Source: Winogradskyella haliclonae
Lineage (GTDB): Bacteria; Bacteroidota; Bacteroidia; Flavobacteriales; Flavobacteriaceae
Direction of reading: 5' to 3'
Assembly: GCF_014635865.1 (NCBI RefSeq)
Contig: NZ_BMDQ01000001.1
Coordinates: 372,001-436,000 of the forward strand
Length of the DNA: 64,000 bases
Shown here: positions 4,701-42,792 of the stretch, piece after piece
How the letters are laid out: each line of letters starts with the position of its first letter
Numbering within the stretch: the first letter of the stretch is position 1
Position numbers and translations under genes: made by a program
The notes under the pieces: generated by a model
Databases searched by the model: none
Told to the model about the DNA's origin: nothing
Seen by the model: the letters and a program-made list of their open reading frames with translations, nothing else

Positions 4701-7700
4701 TTAGTATGTAACAAATAACCATCCGTTAACAACTATGTTTCCTTCTCCTGATTGATTCACTACATAGTAATAAGAACCTGATGGCAGTGCTTTACCACTC
4801 TGGTTAGTTGCTCCCCAATCATTTCTGTATGAATTAGATGCGAAAACCTCATTTCCAGTTCTGTCATAGACTCTTACAGTAGTGCCTGGATAAAGCTCAA
4901 TACTCTGAATCTGCCAAGTATCATTAACATTATCCCCATTAGGAGTAACAATATCATTAACAGTTATGTCATCACAAACATCTCCAAGACCGTCACCATC
5001 AACATCTGATTGATCTGCATTTGCAGTTAGAGGACAGTTGTCGTTTATATCTAACTCACCATCATTATCATCATCATCATCACAAACATCTCCAAGACCA
5101 TCACCATCATTATCAGCTTGATCTGTATTAGCAGTAAACTGGCAATTATCATTAACATCTAATACCCCATCATTATCATCATCATCGTCACACTCATCTC
5201 CAATACCATCTCCATCATTATCAGCTTGATCTGTATTATCTACAATTACACAATTATCATCATCATTTAGAATTCCATCAGAATCAAAATCTTCTGAATC
5301 TCTAATACCACAAATTTCTAAGCTAAATCCATCCAGAGAACCTCCATCTAAACTTGGGTCTTGGTCAACAACAACTAAGAACCAAGTACCTATTGATTGT
5401 TGGCCATTAAAAAATGATAAAGGCTCTTCTGGAGCAAAAACTCCTGTAAATGGAGCTACACCATCATTAATTGAAACCGGTTGTATATCAACAATTCCAT
5501 CTCCGTCTGTATCAATTCCATCATCATCAAAAACTGTGTTGGTGAAATTTTCACTACCTCCTCCAGCACCATCTGCCAAAACAACAAATTCTGTGGCTGT
5601 AGGATTGAATAAAGCTATTAATAAATCTCCAGTCCAAGTATGCTGAATATCAACAGTAACGTTAACATCTGTTATTGTCAAATCTTCTTCTATATCTACA
5701 GATATAACATATTGTTGACTAGGTAAAGCAGAGTCATCGTCAATTACTAATGACTCACCTGCATATGTTGCTATTGTACATGTAACATCACATACATCTC
5801 CAATTCCATTACCATCTAAATCTTCTTGATCTGCATTGGCTGTGCTCGGACAATTATCATCATCATTAAGCAATCCATCATTATCTATATCGTCATCACA
5901 GACGTCTCCTAATCCATCACCATCAACATCTGATTGGTCAGTATTAGCTGTCAAAGGACAATTATCTAATGAATCAGGAACCAAATCATCGTCTGAATCT
6001 GGCAGAGGTACACCACATATTTCTAAAGACCAATTTTCTATATTACCTGTATCACCAGAAACAAAATCTTGAACAGTTAAAAGCCAATCTCCACTAGCAA
6101 TTTCTCCGTTCAATGTAGATAAATCACCATCTGGCGTAAATGTCCCTGTAAAGTCTCCAGAACCAGAACTTATAGGGTCAGTAGCATCACTGTCAAATAC
6201 AGTATCAACATACTGTGTTCCATTTCCTCCATTACGGTTAGAAAGAATAACATCAGTACCTGAAGGGCTCGTTAAAGTTATAAGTAAATCATCACCCCAT
6301 GTATGAGATACATTAATAGTTACATTTACATCTGTAATTTCAGAGACATCAGTAACTTGAAGAGTTGAACTTACAGGGTCTCCAGGACCAACAAAGAATA
6401 TTCCATCTGGTATGGCTATTGGAGTATCAGTTGCTGTTGAAACATTACATTCAATAGTACCAGTTTGAAAACTAGTAGAAGCATATGCTCCTTCTCCACA
6501 ATTATTCACAGCTCTAACTCTCCAAAAATAAGAAGTATCAGTAGCAAGCCCCATAGGTACAAATAAAGCCTCTGTAACAACTCCACTAGATACTATATTA
6601 GTAAAACCTGCATCAGACGCTACATCAACTTCATAGGCAGCAGCATTAGAATCTTCACTCCAAGTAAATTCAGCCATTGGAGGAACTCCAGTAATTCCTC
6701 CGTTAGGATAACCCTGAGTAATTGTTCCAAATGTATCGTCAAATACATTTAAAGTAGCATTAGTTGGAGCCGTATCTGTACCATCAGTAGTTTCTATTTG
6801 AAAATCATAAGTCCCTACATCTACAGAAGCTAAACCACTAACCGTCATTGTAACAGGAGTCGCATCAGCTGTAACTGTACTTGGACTAAAACTAGCTGTA
6901 GCACCCATTGGCAAGCCATTAGTTGCAAAAGTCACTGAACCTGTAAAAGTCGGATCTATAAGATTATATGTAAAATTATATGTTGCATCAGCTGGTTTAC
7001 AAACTTCTACATTTGAAGCATTAGAATCTGCAAAAGTTATCTCAAAAGGAAAAGGGGATTGATTAAGAACTTCCCTTGGCCCACCAGGTTCAAAAACTGC
7101 ACGCATTCTGTCAATTTGCCCTTGAGTAAAAAGTCCCATGCATGCATCATCACTGTAATCCATATAGTTTTCGAACATATCATCAGTACCACATTTAACT
7201 GGCCTAGCTCCAGCACAAGGGTAGTTAGGACTATCAGAACTCGGTGTGTCATCTACAAAATCATCAACACCACAGCCACCATCACCCCAGATGTGACGAA
7301 GATTAAAATAATGACCTATCTCATGAGTAGTAGTACGACCTAAATCATAAGTATCATCTAAGAAAAAAGTTTCACCTGCAGCAGCTTCATAATCTGAAGA
7401 TCCAAAAAACTGCGGGCTCATTACAATACCATCGTCAGGGTCACCTGCACTTGCTGGGAATGTTGCATATCCAAGGATTCCACCTCCGATATTACCTACC
7501 CAAAAATTAAAATAACGTAATGGATCCCATGCATCAGTTCCTCCTTGGGCTGAGAACTTAATAGAATCGTCAGTTCCCCATGCCGCAACATTAGTTTCTT
7601 TTCTTGTGATACCGTTTGTAGGGTTACCATCTGGATCTATTTGAGCTAAGTAATATTCTATTTTAGTATCCCCAGCTTGAGGCCATATGTTTGCTTGTAT

Positions 7701-8036
7701 ATCAGCAAACTCATCATTCAAGGCTCTAAAATCCTTATAGATAACATCTATTTGAGATTCTATTTGAGCGTCGCTAATGTTTTCTACTGGGTTAGCAGAA
7801 TTCCAAACCACGTGTACTACAACTGGGACATATATAATATCATCCATCATTCGGAAGCTATTATTTGCAATACCTTGTTGAGTAAAGTTTTCTAGCTGAT
7901 TCATTCTTTCCTGATATGCAGGATCTTGCATCTTCTGTTCTAATAAGTCATTAGAATAACAGTTCCTCTCTTGAGCAATTAAAGAAGATGAAATCAAGAA
8001 AAAAGCAGCTACTAAAAAGTAAAGATTTTTTTTCAT
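4701..8036 (-). CDS. Secreted M43 metalloprotease with P-domains, TSP3 repeats and type IX sorting domain
   Basis: A 1111-residue multidomain export protein. Signal peptide 1-22; pappalysin-type M43 zincin about 65-325 with zinc motif HEIGHYFNLRH (238-248) and Met-turn NYMDY (290-294); Ig-like region about 340-430; fibronectin III about 445-525; P-domain 1 about 530-675; thrombospondin type 3 repeats 680-750; P-domain 2 about 752-911; a second TSP3 block 915-1022 (units such as DNDGDGIGDECDDD bind calcium); and a gliding-type (type B, SprB-like) C-terminal sorting domain 1025-1111 starting TPNGDNVNDTW. All catalytic residues are present, so it is likely an active secreted or surface-attached protease. 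The downstream PorP/SprF gene supports type IX export. The substrate is unknown. The two P-domains look like an internal duplication. Confidence 0.95.
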   Translation of the reverse strand: MKKNLYFLVAAFFLISSSLIAQERNCYSNDLLEQKMQDPAYQERMNQLENFTQQGIANNSFRMMDDIIYVPVVVHVVWNSANPVENISDAQIESQIDVIYKDFRALNDEFADIQANIWPQAGDTKIEYYLAQIDPDGNPTNGITRKETNVAAWGTDDSIKFSAQGGTDAWDPLRYFNFWVGNIGGGILGYATFPASAGDPDDGIVMSPQFFGSSDYEAAAGETFFLDDTYDLGRTTTHEIGHYFNLRHIWGDGGCGVDDFVDDTPSSDSPNYPCAGARPVKCGTDDMFENYMDYSDDACMGLFTQGQIDRMRAVFEPGGPREVLNQSPFPFEITFADSNASNVEVCKPADATYNFTYNLIDPTFTGSVTFATNGLPMGATASFSPSTVTADATPVTMTVSGLASVDVGTYDFQIETTDGTDTAPTNATLNVFDDTFGTITQGYPNGGITGVPPMAEFTWSEDSNAAAYEVDVASDAGFTNIVSSGVVTEALFVPMGLATDTSYFWRVRAVNNCGEGAYASTSFQTGTIECNVSTATDTPIAIPDGIFFVGPGDPVSSTLQVTDVSEITDVNVTINVSHTWGDDLLITLTSPSGTDVILSNRNGGNGTQYVDTVFDSDATDPISSGSGDFTGTFTPDGDLSTLNGEIASGDWLLTVQDFVSGDTGNIENWSLEICGVPLPDSDDDLVPDSLDNCPLTANTDQSDVDGDGLGDVCDDDIDNDGLLNDDDNCPSTANADQEDLDGNGIGDVCDVTCTIATYAGESLVIDDDSALPSQQYVISVDIEEDLTITDVNVTVDIQHTWTGDLLIALFNPTATEFVVLADGAGGGSENFTNTVFDDDGIDTDGDGIVDIQPVSINDGVAPFTGVFAPEEPLSFFNGQQSIGTWFLVVVDQDPSLDGGSLDGFSLEICGIRDSEDFDSDGILNDDDNCVIVDNTDQADNDGDGIGDECDDDDDNDGVLDVNDNCQFTANTDQADNDGDGLGDVCDDDDDNDGELDINDNCPLTANADQSDVDGDGLGDVCDDITVNDIVTPNGDNVNDTWQIQSIELYPGTTVRVYDRTGNEVFASNSYRNDWGATNQSGKALPSGSYYYVVNQSGEGNIVVNGWLFVTY

Positions 8037-8263: not shown

Positions 8264-9178
8264 ATGTCATCAAATCACCGACGTTTTTCAAAAATTTTAA
8301 CAATTGGAACCTTTGATGGCGTTCACATTGGCCATCAAAAAATACTAAAACGAATAGTAAACCTCTCAAAAGAGAAAGACTTGATACCTAGCGTATTGAC
8401 TTTTTTCCCTCATCCCAGGATGGTACTCCAACAAAATCACTCTATAAAACTATTAAACACTATTGCAGAACGAAGAATGTTGCTAGAAAAATTTGGTATT
8501 GAATTAATATGCGTAAAAACATTTACAAGAGAGTTTGCCAACTTATCCGCTAGAGCTTATATAAAAGATATTTTAATAAATGAATTAAATACCAAACAGG
8601 TTCTCATTGGATATGATCATCATTTTGGAAAAAACAGAAGTGCTAACATTAATGATTTAAAACAATTTTCTGAAGAGTTTGATTTTGAAATTGAAGAAAT
8701 CTCTGCAGAAGATATTGCAGAAGTAACTATAAGCTCCACTAAAATACGAAATGCCCTCAATAATGGAAATATATCTCTTGCTAATACGTATTTAGGTTAT
8801 AATTATTTTTTAACCGGAAAAGTCGTTAGTGGCCAAAGCATTGGGCGCACTATTGATTTCCCTACAGCTAATATATTTATAGAAGAAGATTACAAACTCA
8901 TCCCAAAAGATGGCGTATATGTTGTAAAATCTATAATTAATGACACCCAATATTACGGCATGATGAATATTGGCTCAAACCCTACTATAAAAAACAAGCC
9001 AAGATCTATAGAAGTCCATTTCTTTAATTTTGAAAACGATATTTATGGTAACCAAATTGTAATAGAACTATTAAGTAGATTAAGAGATGAACATAAGTTT
9101 GAAACCTTAGAAGCGTTGCAAGAACAACTTAGACTAGATAGAGAGAGTGCATTAGTATATATTAAATCAGTAGAATGA
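8264..9178 (+). CDS. ribF: Bifunctional riboflavin kinase/FAD synthetase
   Basis: Converts riboflavin to FMN and FMN to FAD. The N-terminal FMN adenylyltransferase (about 1-180) carries the nucleotidyl-transferase motif TIGTFDGVHIGHQ with HIGH at 21-24 and later the ISSTKIR motif. The C-terminal riboflavin kinase (about 185-304) has GRTIDFPTANI and the NIGSNPTI stretch with the catalytic-region PTI. Length 304 is usual. Its stop overlaps the start of the next gene in ATGA, implying translational coupling with the HTTM protein. Confidence 0.97.
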   Translation: MSSNHRRFSKILTIGTFDGVHIGHQKILKRIVNLSKEKDLIPSVLTFFPHPRMVLQQNHSIKLLNTIAERRMLLEKFGIELICVKTFTREFANLSARAYIKDILINELNTKQVLIGYDHHFGKNRSANINDLKQFSEEFDFEIEEISAEDIAEVTISSTKIRNALNNGNISLANTYLGYNYFLTGKVVSGQSIGRTIDFPTANIFIEEDYKLIPKDGVYVVKSIINDTQYYGMMNIGSNPTIKNKPRSIEVHFFNFENDIYGNQIVIELLSRLRDEHKFETLEALQEQLRLDRESALVYIKSVE

Positions 9179-10482
9179 ATACATTTTTATTTAAACATAT
9201 AGATAATTCTTCTCTAATCGTTTTTAGAATTTTCTTTGGACTACTTTGTTTTTTAGAATCTGTTGGCGCCATATTTACAGGTTGGATAAAAAAAACACTA
9301 ATTGAACCCGAATTTACTTTTAGTTTTATAGACTTTAGTTGGTTGCAACCATTATCAGGAAACTGGATGTATGCGTATTACATTGTAATGGGTGTTTTTG
9401 GGCTACTTATAATGGTAGGCTATAAATATAGGTATAGTGCTTTTGCTTTTGCAATGATGTGGGCTGGCACATATTTTATGCAGAAATCATCATACAATAA
9501 TCATTATTATTTATTGTTCTTGCTAAGCTTTATTATGGCTATTCTACCTGCCAATCGCTATGCAAGTTTTGATGTAAAACGCAACCCTAAACTCAAAAGC
9601 ATATCCATGCCCAATTGGTGTCGATGGGTGTTTATTTTACAACTCTTTATTGTATATACTTATGCTTCAATTGCAAAAATATACCCAGATTGGCTAGATG
9701 CCTCAGTAATCAAGCTATTAATGCAGGGTAAATCTCACTTTCCTATAGTTGGTGAGCTACTTCAAAATGAAAGTGTACATTATTTTATTGCATACTCTGG
9801 AATAGTATTCGACGGGTTAATTATCCCACTATTGCTTTTTAAGCCAACTCGTAAATATGCATTTTTCGCTTCTATATTTTTTCATCTTTTTAATTCCTTT
9901 GTATTTCATATTGGTATATTCCCCTACTTATCCTTAGCATTCTGCTTATTCTTTTTTGAACCAAAAACAATTAGAAATATCTTTTTAAAAAAGAAAGAAC
10001 TCTACTCTGGTAATGCTATAAAAATACCTAGTTATCAAACTATTTTTAAAATTGCTTTTGCAACATACTTTATAATTCAGGTAGCACTCCCATTACGTCA
10101 TTACTTTATAGAAGACAATGTGCTTTGGACTGAAGAAGGGCATCGACTCTCATGGCGTATGATGTTACGTGCTAAAAATGGAAGCATTAATTTTAGGGTA
10201 ATTGATAATGCTACAAATAAGATTATCCCTATTAAACTCAACGATTACCTTACTAAAAAACAACAGCGAGGCTTAAAAACTAAGCCCGATTTTATATGGC
10301 AATTTGCTCAAATGCTTGATAAAAAATTTAAAATTGAAGGTAAATCTGTTTCAATATTTGTCACTTCGTATGTGAGTGTAAATGGTAAACCTTCAAAACG
10401 TTTTATAGACCCAGAAGTAGACCTTACTAAAGTAGAGTGGAATTACTTTAAACACAACAAGTGGATTTTACCTTCAAAATAG
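9175..10482 (+). CDS. HTTM family membrane protein, vitamin K-dependent gamma-carboxylase-like
   Basis: A 435-residue polytopic membrane protein with several hydrophobic helices between residues 15 and 305 and a soluble C-terminal part. Compared from memory with human GGCX, it matches over the whole core: SSYNNHYYL (105-113), the ANRYASFD segment (126-133), IVYTYASIAKIYPDWL (159-174), SWRMML, and RFIDPEVDLTKVEW (409-422). His110 corresponds to GGCX His160 and Lys168 to the catalytic Lys218, with the same 58-residue spacing. The vertebrate C-terminal tail and much of the lumenal domain are absent. The true reaction in bacteria of this group is unknown; gamma-glutamyl carboxylation is inference. 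Four-base overlap with ribF. Confidence 0.85.
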   Translation: MNTFLFKHIDNSSLIVFRIFFGLLCFLESVGAIFTGWIKKTLIEPEFTFSFIDFSWLQPLSGNWMYAYYIVMGVFGLLIMVGYKYRYSAFAFAMMWAGTYFMQKSSYNNHYYLLFLLSFIMAILPANRYASFDVKRNPKLKSISMPNWCRWVFILQLFIVYTYASIAKIYPDWLDASVIKLLMQGKSHFPIVGELLQNESVHYFIAYSGIVFDGLIIPLLLFKPTRKYAFFASIFFHLFNSFVFHIGIFPYLSLAFCLFFFEPKTIRNIFLKKKELYSGNAIKIPSYQTIFKIAFATYFIIQVALPLRHYFIEDNVLWTEEGHRLSWRMMLRAKNGSINFRVIDNATNKIIPIKLNDYLTKKQQRGLKTKPDFIWQFAQMLDKKFKIEGKSVSIFVTSYVSVNGKPSKRFIDPEVDLTKVEWNYFKHNKWILPSK

Positions 10483-10581: not shown

Positions 10582-11853
10582 ATGTTACAAGTTTCGCATA
10601 TAAGAGAACACAGCGAAGAGATTATAAAATTGTTGGCCATCAGAAATATTGATGCAAAGCCAATGATTGACGATGTCTTAAATTTTGATGAAGAACGCCG
10701 TCAGTTACAGACTATGTTAGATACCACAAAAGCTGAAATGAATGCTATTTCAAAAGAAATAGGAAGTTTATTTAAATCTGGCCAAGCAGAAAAAGCTAAC
10801 GCACTTAAATCAAAAACATCTGAGCTCAAAGAAACTATAAAAACGGTTGAGCAGGAGTTAAATGAAAAAGCTGAAGCTTTAAATAACGTATTGTACAAAA
10901 TACCTAATGTTCCTAACCCAATTGTCCCTAACGGAAATTCTGATGAAGATAATTTAGAAACACTCCGTGATGGCGAAATACCTAGTTTACATGATGGTGC
11001 ACTTCCGCATTGGGAATTGGCAAAAAAATACGACATCATAGATTTTGAATTAGGTAATAAAATAGCTGGTGCAGGCTTTCCTGTTTATAAAGGAAAAGGT
11101 GCTCGTTTGCAACGTGCATTAATAACCTACTTTTTAGATAAAAATACTGAAGTAGGCTATACAGAATATCAATTACCGCACCTGGTTAACGAAGCTTCTG
11201 GTTTTGGCACAGGTCAATTACCAGATAAAGAAGGTCAGATGTATCATGTTACAGAAGATAACCTATATCTAATTCCTACTGCAGAAGTTCCTGGAACTAA
11301 TATTTTTAGAGATGTTATTCTTAGTGAAAGTGAATTACCAATAGGTATTACCGGTTATACGCCTTGCTTTAGACGTGAAGCTGGAAGTTACGGTGCTCAT
11401 GTCCGTGGCCTTAACCGTTTACACCAGTTCGATAAGGTAGAAATTATCCGTGTAGAACATCCATCAAAGTCTTATAAAGCTTTAGATAATATGGTGTCTC
11501 ATGTCCAAGATATTTTAAAAGAGCTAAAATTACCATATCGTATTTTACGTCTATGTGGTGGAGATTTAACTTTTGCTTCTGCACTAACGTATGATTTTGA
11601 AGTTTTTTCTGCGGCTCAAGAACGTTGGCTAGAAGTATCTTCTGTTTCTAATTTTGAAACCTACCAGTCTAACCGATTAAAGTTACGTTTTAAAAATAGT
11701 GATGGTAAAAATGAATTGGCACATACATTAAACGGGAGTTCATTAGCTTTGCCGCGCATTCTTGCTAGTATTCTTGAAAATTACCAAACGGAAAATGGCA
11801 TCAAAATTCCTGAAGCCTTAATCCCGTATACTGGTTTTGATATTATAGATTAA
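10582..11853 (+). CDS. serS: Seryl-tRNA synthetase
   Basis: Class II aminoacyl-tRNA synthetase charging tRNA-Ser. Residues 1-105 form the tRNA-binding antiparallel coiled coil (LLAIRNIDAKPMIDDVLNFD and following Lys/Glu-rich helices). The catalytic domain shows the TAEVPGTN serine-binding motif, motif 2 CFRREAGSYGAHVRGLNRLH and motif 3 NGSSLALPRILASILENYQ near the C-terminus. The 423-residue length is standard. It has its own promoter and terminator and so forms a single-gene unit. Confidence 0.98.
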   Translation: MLQVSHIREHSEEIIKLLAIRNIDAKPMIDDVLNFDEERRQLQTMLDTTKAEMNAISKEIGSLFKSGQAEKANALKSKTSELKETIKTVEQELNEKAEALNNVLYKIPNVPNPIVPNGNSDEDNLETLRDGEIPSLHDGALPHWELAKKYDIIDFELGNKIAGAGFPVYKGKGARLQRALITYFLDKNTEVGYTEYQLPHLVNEASGFGTGQLPDKEGQMYHVTEDNLYLIPTAEVPGTNIFRDVILSESELPIGITGYTPCFRREAGSYGAHVRGLNRLHQFDKVEIIRVEHPSKSYKALDNMVSHVQDILKELKLPYRILRLCGGDLTFASALTYDFEVFSAAQERWLEVSSVSNFETYQSNRLKLRFKNSDGKNELAHTLNGSSLALPRILASILENYQTENGIKIPEALIPYTGFDIID

Positions 11854-11875: not shown

Positions 11876-11906
11876 AATGCCCAAGTTTCCTTGGGCATTT
11901 TTTTAT
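11876..11906 (+). terminator. Terminator after serS
   Basis: AATGCCCAAG and CTTGGGCATT form a perfect 10-bp stem around TTTC, followed by seven T. Confidence 0.9.
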
Positions 11907-38802: not shown

Positions 38803-40467
38803 TTATAAACGGTTATTTTTCAATTTATTTCTCAGATAAATAAAGCCATCTTCAATATCATCAAAAACATCTTCTTTGGGCACAAGGTCGGAGATAATAT
38901 CAACTGCTCCTAGCATGTCCATTGGCTGTTCTTTAAGTCCTATCAATAAGACTTCAATATTCTGCTCCCGAAGGTCAAATATAATATCCTCTAAAGTATA
39001 CAAACCTGATTGGTCTATGTATGGCACACGGTCCATTCTAAGGATTACTGCCTCTACTTCACTTGACAATTCCTTTATCTGATCTTTAAAATAGGACGTG
39101 AAACCAAAGAATAAAGGACCATATAAGTGTTTAATAATGACTTTGTCTTTATATTCTTCATAAAATTCTTTTTCGTCTTGCCATGGCTTTGAACCATCAA
39201 TATCTGAAAGGGCACCAACTTCCATTCCTTTTTCACTAATATCTCCCGATTTTTTCATGAAAAGAAGACAAGCCAACGCAACACCAATTCCTACAGCCTG
39301 AATTAAGCTACCAAATGTGGTAATTGCTAAAACTAAAATTAAGACTACTGCATCTGCTCTAGGGACTTTTGCAAGATGCTTTAAGCCCTTAAAGTCTACA
39401 ATTTTAAATCCTATAGGGATTAATAAACCAGCTAATACACACAAAGGAATATGACCTGCTAATTGCCCAAGACCTAATAGAACAGTCAATAGAAAAATTC
39501 CATGAAGTATGCCTGAAAGTCGCGTTCTTCCACCTGCATTAATATTAACAACTGTTCCTTTTGTCGCTCCGGCACCAGGAATTCCTCCTATTGCTGCTGC
39601 TAACATATTACCAATACCTTGTCCTATAAGTTCTCGATTACTATTATGCTTGGTCTTAGTCATGTTGTCTGCAATAACAGAAGTCAATAATGAATCTATA
39701 CTTCCTAACACAGCTAATACAATGGCATACTCTAAAATAATACCCCAAGCACTAGCATCAACCTCTAGAATCCCTCCTAGCTGAAAAGACGGTAATCCAG
39801 AAGGAATCTCGCCAATCAAAGGCACATCCATTTTAAAGAAATAGGCTATTAAAGTGGCAACAATTAAAGCAAAAAGTGCACTTGGTATAGCTTTAGTTAT
39901 TTTTGGAAACACAAAATAAATGATAATGGTAATAGATCCTAAAAGCAAGGCGGATAAATTAAATTCTGCAAACAATCTAGGAAAATCTTTAATCACAGTA
40001 AGTGTAGATTTTGCCGAATCCAGACCTGCAAAAGGAAACAATTGTAATATTACAATAATGAGACCTACGCCACTCATAAAGCCTGATACTACAGGATAAG
40101 GAAAGTATTTTACGTAACCTGCAATATTCAAAAACCCAAAAATCACTTGGAAAAGCCCGCCCAACAAAAAACTAAGCAGAATAATACTCATGGCACTTTC
40201 TAAACTTCCTGTAATTTCTATTGCGGCAGCTACCAAAGCCGCAGAAACCACTGTCATAGGTCCAGTAGGTCCACTAGCTTGTGTTTGTGTGCCACCAAAC
40301 ATTGCGGCAAAAATACCAACAGCAATGGCACCATATAATCCCGCAGTAGCACCCATACCAGATTGCACTCCAAAAGCTAAAGCTAATGGTAAAGCTACAA
40401 CTCCAGCAACAAGTCCGCCAGTAAAATCACCTTTAAAGTTTTTAAAATCATAAAATTTAGATAGCAT
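38803..40467 (-). CDS. SulP family anion transporter with STAS domain (second copy)
   Basis: 554 residues. Transmembrane part about 1-420 with the SulP signature sequence near LALAFGVQSGMGATAGLYGA and the STAS domain about 440-545 containing VILRMDRVPYIDQSGLYTLED. Family members carry sulfate, bicarbonate or other anions; the neighbouring carbonic anhydrase argues for bicarbonate. It shares the general plan with the copy at 41203-42792, but they are clearly divergent sequences, not a recent tandem duplicate. Located downstream of the carbonic anhydrase by 73 bases. Confidence 0.93.
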   Translation of the reverse strand: MLSKFYDFKNFKGDFTGGLVAGVVALPLALAFGVQSGMGATAGLYGAIAVGIFAAMFGGTQTQASGPTGPMTVVSAALVAAAIEITGSLESAMSIILLSFLLGGLFQVIFGFLNIAGYVKYFPYPVVSGFMSGVGLIIVILQLFPFAGLDSAKSTLTVIKDFPRLFAEFNLSALLLGSITIIIYFVFPKITKAIPSALFALIVATLIAYFFKMDVPLIGEIPSGLPSFQLGGILEVDASAWGIILEYAIVLAVLGSIDSLLTSVIADNMTKTKHNSNRELIGQGIGNMLAAAIGGIPGAGATKGTVVNINAGGRTRLSGILHGIFLLTVLLGLGQLAGHIPLCVLAGLLIPIGFKIVDFKGLKHLAKVPRADAVVLILVLAITTFGSLIQAVGIGVALACLLFMKKSGDISEKGMEVGALSDIDGSKPWQDEKEFYEEYKDKVIIKHLYGPLFFGFTSYFKDQIKELSSEVEAVILRMDRVPYIDQSGLYTLEDIIFDLREQNIEVLLIGLKEQPMDMLGAVDIISDLVPKEDVFDDIEDGFIYLRNKLKNNRL

Positions 40468-40540
40468 AAAAAAAGGGTTTAGTTACTGAAAAATTGTTAT
40501 TTGTACTAAGGAAGACGTTTTAAATAAGTTTCAATATTTA

Positions 40541-41170
40541 TTATAGCATTTCTACCTTACCAGTATGCAAACTATAAACGCCGCCTACAATAGCAATTTC
40601 GCCGTTGTCTTCCATATCCTTTAAAATTGGACTTTTCTCACGAATGCGGTCCATTGTAAGTTTTACGTTATTCTCTACAGTCTTTGCAACAAATTCTTTA
40701 TTAGAAGAATTGGCTTCGCCTTCAACCTCATCTGCAGACAGGTGAACTGCTGGCAAGATATTACTTAATAAATGTGTTATATTTCCTAGTTCTACACCAT
40801 CACAAGCTGCTTTTACAGCGCCACATGCTTCGTGACCAAGTACCAAAACTAATTTACTTCCTGCCACTTTACAGGAGTATTCCAAGCTTCCTAAAATATC
40901 AGCATTCTCAAAGTTACCAGCTACTCTAGCTACAAAAATGTCACCTATAGCTTGATCTAAAACTGTCTCTACAGGAACTCGAGAATCTATACAAGACAAC
41001 ACTACTGCTTTAGGAAATTGACCTCCAGTCGTTTGGCTAACTAATGCTGCATTATCTGCTCCTTCTAAATTTCCATTAATAAAACGGTTATTGCCTTCTA
41101 ATAAATCTTGTAGCACACCGTTAGGGGTAAGCGCACTTTGAACTTCTTTTGTTATTGCTATACTTTTCAT
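40541..41170 (-). CDS. Beta-carbonic anhydrase
   Basis: 209 residues. Zinc ligands Cys60, His113 and Cys116 are in SCIDSRVPVE (59-68) and GHEACGAVKAACDG (112-125), with the Asp62-Arg64 dyad, all as in type I/II beta-enzymes. It interconverts CO2 and bicarbonate. Lying between two SulP genes on the same strand, it probably equilibrates imported bicarbonate or feeds anaplerotic carboxylases. Confidence 0.96.
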   Translation of the reverse strand: MKSIAITKEVQSALTPNGVLQDLLEGNNRFINGNLEGADNAALVSQTTGGQFPKAVVLSCIDSRVPVETVLDQAIGDIFVARVAGNFENADILGSLEYSCKVAGSKLVLVLGHEACGAVKAACDGVELGNITHLLSNILPAVHLSADEVEGEANSSNKEFVAKTVENNVKLTMDRIREKSPILKDMEDNGEIAIVGGVYSLHTGKVEML

Positions 41171-41202
41171 TTTATTTTTATATTAAATATTTACTTTTAA
41201 GA

Positions 41203-42792
41203 CTATTCGCCTTTCTTTTTTAGTTTAAAAAACTCGATAAAACTATCTGGATTTTCCACTATTCCTCTTTCAGAAATTATTTTAATATCTATATTTCGCT
41301 CTCTTGCTTTAAAAGCAAAATCTTCTAAAATTTCAATAATATCATTATCTAAATACCTAGTCTTCATAACATCAAGTTCTAGATACGAGTTTTCTGGTAT
41401 ACGATCTAATTCTTTTAAAATTGCACCTTTATTAAAGAATGTTACTTCTTCAGCTAAAGTCATTTTAATTCTACCATCATCAACATCTTCTCCTTCTTTA
41501 TGAAGAAAATGAGAATTTTGAAAACTCCTATAAAGCACCACAAAAATACCTACCGCGAGACCTAGACCAATACCTTTTAATAGATCAAGAAAAACAATAC
41601 CTAGAACTGTTATGATAAATGGTACAAATTGCATCCAACCGCCTTTGTACATCGCTCTAAACGTAGATGGCTTAGCAAGTTTATATCCTACTATAAAAAG
41701 TATGGCAGCAAGAACAGAAAGCGGAATTAAATTGAGTATATGAGGAATGGCTATTATAGATATCAAAAGTAAAAACCCATGAATAATTGCAGAAGCCTTA
41801 CTTCTACCTCCAGATTGAATGTTTGCAGAACTACGTACTATCACCTGAGTAACAGGCAACCCTCCTATAAGTCCAGAAACTATATTACCCGAGCCTTGAG
41901 CAAACAACTCTCTATTGGTTGGTGTCACATTTTTATTAGGGTCTAGCTTGTCTGTAGCTTCTACACAAAGTAGCGTTTCTAATGAGGCAACTAAGCCTAT
42001 AGTAAATGCCGCAATTAAAACCTCAGGGTTTGTTATCGCAGAAAAATTTGGAAACGTTAGTAAATCTTTTAATCCAGATAAATCATCAGGTACAGGTACT
42101 GCCACTAAGTGGTCTTTTGTTAACTCTAAGTTTGTGTCTATAGTTAACAAATAGAATATTATCCCTAGAACTACAACTACCAAAGGTCCTTGTATTAATT
42201 GAAATATCTTCCCTTTTTTACTCAATACATTACTCCACAAAAGGAGTATTGCCATGGCAACTATAGCTATTAATGTGGCACCATGATCAAAGTTTCCACT
42301 TATTATGGCATTAATTGTTTTTAATAATTCAGTAAGTGTATTTTCACCATCTACTTGCAGAAAAGCAAAATCACCTTCAGGATTTTTATCCAATCCAAAA
42401 AAGTAAGGAATCTCTTTGAGAATAATTACTACACCTATACCGGTTAGCATACCTTTAATTACTGAAGACGGGAAATAATACCCAATAATTCCTAACTTAA
42501 ATACACCAAAAAGAATTTGTAAAACACCTCCAAGTACAACAGCTACAAGAAAATTTTCGTACCCTAAACTTGCTATTGCTGTTGCTACAATAACTGCTAA
42601 TCCAGCTGCAGGTCCACTTACACCTATATTAGAGCCTGATGCGGCTCCCACAACTATACCACCAACAATACCGGCTATTAAACCTGTTATTGGCTCTGCT
42701 CCAGAGGCGACTGATATCCCCAAACATAAGGGTAATGCTACAAAGAATACGACAATACTAGCTGGTATGTCATTTTTTAATGTTTTAAACAT
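41203..42792 (-). CDS. SulP family anion transporter with STAS domain (first copy)
   Basis: 529 residues. The transmembrane part (about 1-415) starts with LKNDIPASIVVFFVALPLCL and contains the conserved stretch GAASGSNIGVSGPAAGLAVIV; the STAS domain (about 430-520) is short. This branch with an N-terminal IPASIVVFFVALPLCLG motif is the one most often found next to carbonic anhydrase in marine Bacteroidota and is related to the BicA bicarbonate transporter. It is first in the SulP-CA-SulP group. Confidence 0.92.
   Translation of the reverse strand: MFKTLKNDIPASIVVFFVALPLCLGISVASGAEPITGLIAGIVGGIVVGAASGSNIGVSGPAAGLAVIVATAIASLGYENFLVAVVLGGVLQILFGVFKLGIIGYYFPSSVIKGMLTGIGVVIILKEIPYFFGLDKNPEGDFAFLQVDGENTLTELLKTINAIISGNFDHGATLIAIVAMAILLLWSNVLSKKGKIFQLIQGPLVVVVLGIIFYLLTIDTNLELTKDHLVAVPVPDDLSGLKDLLTFPNFSAITNPEVLIAAFTIGLVASLETLLCVEATDKLDPNKNVTPTNRELFAQGSGNIVSGLIGGLPVTQVIVRSSANIQSGGRSKASAIIHGFLLLISIIAIPHILNLIPLSVLAAILFIVGYKLAKPSTFRAMYKGGWMQFVPFIITVLGIVFLDLLKGIGLGLAVGIFVVLYRSFQNSHFLHKEGEDVDDGRIKMTLAEEVTFFNKGAILKELDRIPENSYLELDVMKTRYLDNDIIEILEDFAFKARERNIDIKIISERGIVENPDSFIEFFKLKKKGE

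Follow-up and report, generated by a model that had tools for sequence, protein, structure and literature searches.

A ribF-adjacent VKGC-family membrane protein of Winogradskyella haliclonae resembling human gamma-glutamyl carboxylase at the active site

We analysed a stretch of 64,000 nt from the genome of Winogradskyella haliclonae (Flavobacteriaceae, Bacteroidota; RefSeq assembly GCF_014635865.1, contig NZ_BMDQ01000001.1, forward-strand positions 372,001 to 436,000), hereafter the window. The gene in question encodes a membrane protein related to the human vitamin K-dependent gamma-glutamyl carboxylase (GGCX) and stands between ribF and serS. Features of the locus, in window coordinates, are collected in Table 1.

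Table 1. Features of the ribF-VKGC-serS locus
Feature	Position	Strand	Basis
VKGC-family membrane protein gene, 435 aa	9175..10482	+	ATG start; Pfam PF05090 and PF22777; sole PDB match GGCX; AlphaFold2 overlay on GGCX
HTTM transmembrane domain (residues 6-263), with eight of the nine membrane helices predicted	9190..9963	+	Pfam, predicted helices
VKGC lumenal domain match, residues 288-434, ninth helix included	10036..10476	+	Pfam
Asn108-Asn109-His110 codons, equivalent to human N158-N159-H160 (Glu pocket)	9496..9504	+	GGCX alignment; roles from PMC12589487
Lys168 codon, equivalent to human Lys218, catalytic base	9676..9678	+	GGCX alignment; role from PMC12589487
Overlap (ATGA) of the ribF stop codon with the VKGC start codon	9175..9178	+	
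ribF (FAD synthetase/riboflavin kinase), upstream neighbour	8264..9178	+	FAD_syn and Flavokinase domains (Pfam)
serS (seryl-tRNA synthetase), downstream neighbour	10582..11853	+	Pfam
Terminator-like hairpin 3' of serS	11876..11899	+	Consensus match only

Both Pfam domains cover their profiles almost completely: HTTM (PF05090; E 6.5e-77, 259.1 bits against a cut-off of 27.7) is matched at profile positions 1-257 of 259 and VKGC_lumenal_dom (PF22777; E 1.5e-54, 184.5 bits, cut-off 27.7) at positions 2-149 of 152. By these profile matches the protein is a full-length member of the HTTM + VKGC_lumenal_dom superfamily; it has no NCBIfam match at E 0.001. The closest named relatives among the matches listed belong to Winogradskyella species. 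A phmmer search against PDB chains, run at E up to 1, matched eight distinct sequences, every one of them GGCX (best E 2.3e-36). The alignment pairs residues 3-433 of the window protein with residues 53-504 of GGCX (full-length numbering) and has 125 identities in 427 aligned columns. An earlier interpretation made from the letters alone (the sequence-only reading) had claimed homology over nearly the full GGCX core; this alignment and the overlay of the predicted fold bear it out, and the motifs quoted there (NNHYYL, IAKIYPDWL and RFIDPEVDLTKVEW) are present in the protein.

For structure prediction and conservation analysis we used a 68-row alignment of the window protein and 67 orthologues that are 55 to 73% identical to it. 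The AlphaFold2 model built from this alignment (pLDDT 88.7, pTM 0.87) was superimposed by VIA-align 2, over its whole length of 1-435, on residues 51-506 of a GGCX chain (9wfc) with Z 29.9 for 422 residues at 3.2 A. The 16 top-ranking entries were all GGCX (Z at least 20.3) and the next entry scored 5.6; Foldseek TMq values against GGCX reached 0.85. The predicted fold of the window protein thus matches that of GGCX. An overlay of the catalytic pocket had been proposed with the sequence-only reading, and the agreement obtained is at the level of the fold. Nine helices are predicted, with loops rich in Lys and Arg at 124-147 and 261-287; from this pattern we infer that the N terminus would be cytoplasmic and that the active site and the lumenal-type domain would face the periplasm.

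Human residue numbers were transferred through the phmmer alignment. The cryo-EM paper PMC12589487 describes which residues of human GGCX contact vitamin K or Glu, with Lys218 as the catalytic base. GGCX H160, K218 and N158/N159 correspond to H110, K168 and N108/N109, with a His-Lys spacing of 58 in both proteins; the assignments of the His and the Lys and their spacing are those of the sequence-only reading. Eighteen human residues are identical in the window protein: N158, N159, H160, V210, A214, K218, D222, W223, G259, F286, N290, F294, F299, H381, T391, S398, M401 and M402. Together with the fold, this suggests that the protein resembles GGCX at the active site and should work like GGCX there.

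Twelve of these residues (N158, N159, H160, K218, W223, G259, F286, N290, F299, T391, M401 and M402) are invariant in 68/68 rows, while V210, A214 and F294 are replaced by Leu, Gly and Leu in 10, 8 and 6 of the 68 rows, respectively. The alignment includes 67 of 80 named loci; the other 13, omitted to limit its size and checked afterwards, have the same residues, so that the invariant residues are shared by 80/80 named loci; position 381 is His in 74/80. A larger set of 165 rows, 158 of them distinct (two fragments, L253 and L267, excluded), retains N159, H160, K218 and W223 throughout. Variation of the His or the Lys among homologues had been named in advance as the observation that would overturn the catalytic claim; both are invariant in all three sets. 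Among 19 pocket-associated positions, hand-picked from PMC12589487, 14 are invariant in the 68 rows; the whole protein has 68 such positions in 435 (hypergeometric P 9e-9). At two of the 14, K217 and Y395, the fixed residue is Ala and His, respectively, instead of the human one. Purifying selection on the gene is strong, as judged from the ratio of non-synonymous to silent substitution rates (dN/dS), which is 0.06 and 0.12 against two close relatives; a third relative, saturated at silent sites, gave no value.

Genes with VKGC matches are common in these bacteria. All 37 genomes of the genus have one (split over two contigs in one case), as do 192 of 249 sampled genomes of the Flavobacteriaceae, although 15 of the 192 (hand count) do no better than E 6e-71 to 1e-83, which corresponds to a second type. 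In the phylum sample PF22777 occurs in 69/296 Bacteroidota genomes. Its distribution is patchy within one large genus of the family, where three members have a match and at least 14 do not.

Two types can be told apart by tree and residues. The ribF-linked type has NNH, N290, M401 and W493 as in human GGCX (and H381 in most members), whereas the imelysin-linked type has LNH, T290 and V401 and forms a separate clade. The window genome carries one copy of each. The window protein shows none of the marks of the imelysin-linked type: its neighbours are ribF and serS, and it has NNH, N290 and M401. Overall score against the human protein favours the second type (159 versus 129 bits) while the pocket residues favour the ribF-linked one; human GGCX itself stands in the VKGC tree on a long branch beside another long branch.

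The two types differ also in the charge of the lumenal part. In the window protein (residues 312-435) the net charge is +10; in the ribF-linked type the mean is +6.5 (range 0 to +13, n=68; +6.3 and +7.1 in other sets), against means of −2.7 (n=23) and −4.8 (n=29) in the imelysin-linked type. The human fragment has +4, and 10 rows found in neither gene context have +2.4. A basic lumenal part fits an acidic substrate, and the opposite mean charges suggest that the two types act on different substrates.

Taken together, the match to GGCX over the whole length in sequence and fold, the conserved pocket, the basic charge, the presence of menA in the window genome and the low dN/dS lead us to read the protein as a GGCX-like enzyme that faces the periplasm, is driven by menaquinol and acts on a probably acidic exported substrate; we put the chances of this reading at about even. 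The enzyme would reside in the inner membrane with nine helices, its N terminus in the cytoplasm and its active site and lumenal-type domain in the periplasm. The conserved pocket would bind menaquinol, which is the cell's vitamin K2. Lys168 would deprotonate the menaquinol, and addition of O2 would create a strong base able to deprotonate an acidic side chain bound by Asn109, His110 and a basic groove; the menaquinol would then leave as an epoxide. Addition of CO2, the most conjectural step, would leave a Gla (gamma-carboxyglutamate)-type residue on the exported acidic substrate. That this substrate is a protein is a guess.

Several observations weigh against this reading. Lys217 and Tyr395 of GGCX are Ala167 and His323 in the window protein, and these non-human residues are themselves invariant (68/68 rows, 80/80 named loci); Y425 and R436 are replaced by Pro and Gly at positions that vary among the 68 rows. 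PBD-2 (the second propeptide-binding lobe) and the arch are absent, as both the sequence alignment and the overlay end at human residues 504-506, which is the protein's own C terminus. No match to VKOR (PF07884) was detected in the window genome at E 0.001, and at the same threshold only 36/249 genomes of the family have one, which leaves the epoxide product without a known route back. No substrate, Gla protein or propeptide turned up, though no genome-wide search for these was made, and among the conserved neighbours there is no apparent substrate peculiar to the VKGC gene. A bacterial homologue, that of Leptospira, reportedly epoxidises without carboxylating. Since several defining features of GGCX fail in the window protein, the apt name should be VKGC-family protein and not gamma-glutamyl carboxylase.

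The same differences are what one would expect of a menaquinol epoxidase or oxygenase that does not carboxylate, its strong base serving some other proton abstraction, O2 scavenging or quinone modification: His at 395 and Ala at 217 run throughout the ribF-linked type, PBD-2 is missing and the genome has no VKOR; the Leptospira orthologue reportedly behaves in this way. Such an enzyme would have no need of N158, N159 and H160, the residues contacting Glu, yet these are conserved no less strictly than the quinone pocket, and the lumenal domain is basic; we consider this alternative unlikely. The same chemistry of proton abstraction and carboxylation might instead be directed at a small molecule, a lipid or a residue other than Glu, as in antibiotic biosynthesis; an HTTM protein within a linaridin cluster is described in an excerpt of PMC9927463. 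The gene discussed here, however, is widespread in the family and has housekeeping genes on either side, with no biosynthetic cluster around it, and we find this explanation rather improbable. A non-catalytic quinone-binding protein or structural relic is very improbable in view of the strong enrichment of invariant positions in the pocket and the strong purifying selection.

The sequence-only reading had also coupled the gene to ribF. The ATGA overlap is real and the linkage extends through the family: ribF lies immediately upstream on the same strand in 128/166 examined VKGC loci, with a gap of at most 11 bases, often an overlap, in 125 of the 128 (start codons assigned mechanically as the first ATG, GTG or TTG). 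Within the fetched stretches of named Flavobacteriaceae loci ribF is present in 79/80 and serS in 76/80. Linkage this tight could reflect a dependence of the enzyme on flavin or flavoproteins, or a modification of these by it. Outside the family, however, all ten examined loci of the same type (L109, L110, L254 and L260-L266, typed by tree or residues) are without ribF in the fetched stretch, some contigs being short (4.3 kb for L263, 6.9 kb for L266 and 7.4 kb for L110). Of 14 Flavobacteriaceae genomes without a VKGC gene, seven have serS no more than 0.6 kb behind ribF and in the other seven it was not seen within 1.5 kb, and a reprolysin protease gene is kept upstream of ribF in 10 of these 14 loci, so that the neighbourhood is stable by itself. 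Because the link is missing from the loci examined outside the family and the ribF-serS order persists in half of the genomes without the VKGC gene, the linkage looks positional, an inherited arrangement. The coupling thus stands as an arrangement of genes and not as a functional statement; a flavin role drawn from the ribF neighbour was rejected, and we give scarcely any credence to a functional link.

Co-transcription of ribF and the VKGC gene is likely, and the hairpin downstream of serS is a possible end of a ribF-VKGC-serS transcript. The promoter scan gave 17 sites versus a mean of 19.9 in shuffled sequences.

Homologues of the L101 reprolysin occur in 81/166 VKGC loci. The reprolysin, a type IX secretion system protease, was considered as a substrate and rejected: its presence in ribF loci without VKGC marks the neighbourhood and not the enzyme. 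In the window the slot of the reprolysin upstream of ribF is occupied by an M43 metalloprotease (4701-8036, minus strand) that carries TSP3 repeats and P-domains as well as a signal for type IX secretion. Elsewhere in the window (38803-42792, minus strand) a beta-type carbonic anhydrase gene is flanked by two genes for SulP-type permeases, possibly a bicarbonate uptake set. A mobile origin of the VKGC gene was considered and set aside; the search gave two viral-contig matches (one ribF-VKGC-serS locus and one fragment) and four plasmid records. The viral-collection contig with the complete locus, L252, is probably bacterial DNA filed as viral.

VKOR shows no association as a partner, as a VKGC match is found in 30/36 genomes with VKOR and in 162/213 without it (hand comparison). 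A gene for a DCC1-like thiol-disulfide oxidoreductase (PF04134-type) is situated near VKGC in 6/186 examined stretches (L109, L110, L112, L256, L269 and L272), a proximity seen outside the phylum too, in Paracoccus albus; the profile was built from three of these six loci, which were first spotted by eye or annotation, so the ascertainment is biased. In three cases, representing two families of the order and a Paracoccus plasmid, the two genes adjoin divergently (L109 4546-6362, L110 2074-3850 and L256 5473-7341). No DCC1-like gene shows up near VKGC in the 128 ribF-linked loci. Since nearly all genomes of the family (235/249) carry PF04134, its presence cannot discriminate, and the best PF04134 gene of the window genome is on another contig, beside a putative mutS2. 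A DCC1-like oxidoreductase as a VKOR substitute is thus a weak lead. The broader proposal that Flavobacteriaceae run a VKOR-free menaquinone-epoxide cycle through such an enzyme and make Gla-type residues on exported proteins family-wide appears to us quite improbable. A 444-residue fusion of HTTM and DCC1-like parts is encoded at L280 522-1856; it is a single case, picked for its long frame.

The novelty that the sequence-only reading attached to bacterial gamma-carboxylase-type oxygenation is not supported. PF22777 is spread through the phylum, as given above, and relatives are already named in RefSeq and in the literature; an excerpt of PMC4555120 mentions a Leptospira VKGC orthologue. RefSeq labels such proteins 'HTTM domain-containing protein', one of them with the Gene Ontology term peptidyl-glutamic acid carboxylation. 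The window protein is another member of a known family; among papers listed from one open library there was no study of the ribF-linked type. If the protein is active, vitamin K-type epoxidation or carboxylation would be widespread in a large bacterial family, in organisms that make their own cofactor and mostly have no VKOR. Substrates of bacterial VKGC proteins and VKOR-free reduction of quinone epoxides would become testable questions, and mechanistic work would gain a short core lacking the second propeptide lobe.

Compared with human GGCX, the window protein has the same nine-helix fold, as predicted, but D220 and Y379 are replaced by Tyr and Leu, and the C99-C450 disulfide is absent, with Phe49 and Met380 at these positions (that of C450 varies among the 68 rows). 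The imelysin-linked VKGC of the same genome (L116 5474-6856) shares both Pfam domains and N159, H160, K218 and W223; it differs in its DUF4856-imelysin-VKGC-TonB receptor cluster and in a lumenal part acidic on average. The cluster occupies L116 2963-9266 (the stretch starts at 1681086), and the imelysin could be a substrate or an iron-uptake partner. In Riemerella, according to an excerpt of PMC5609570, a gene named vitamin K-dependent gamma-carboxylase stands beside imelysin and TonB receptor genes and appears in a table of Fur-regulated genes. The Leptospira VKGC and malonomycin-cluster VKDC orthologues are bacterial members of the same superfamily. The former reportedly epoxidises without carboxylating; the latter reportedly acts in antibiotic biosynthesis, going by the title of Law 2018.
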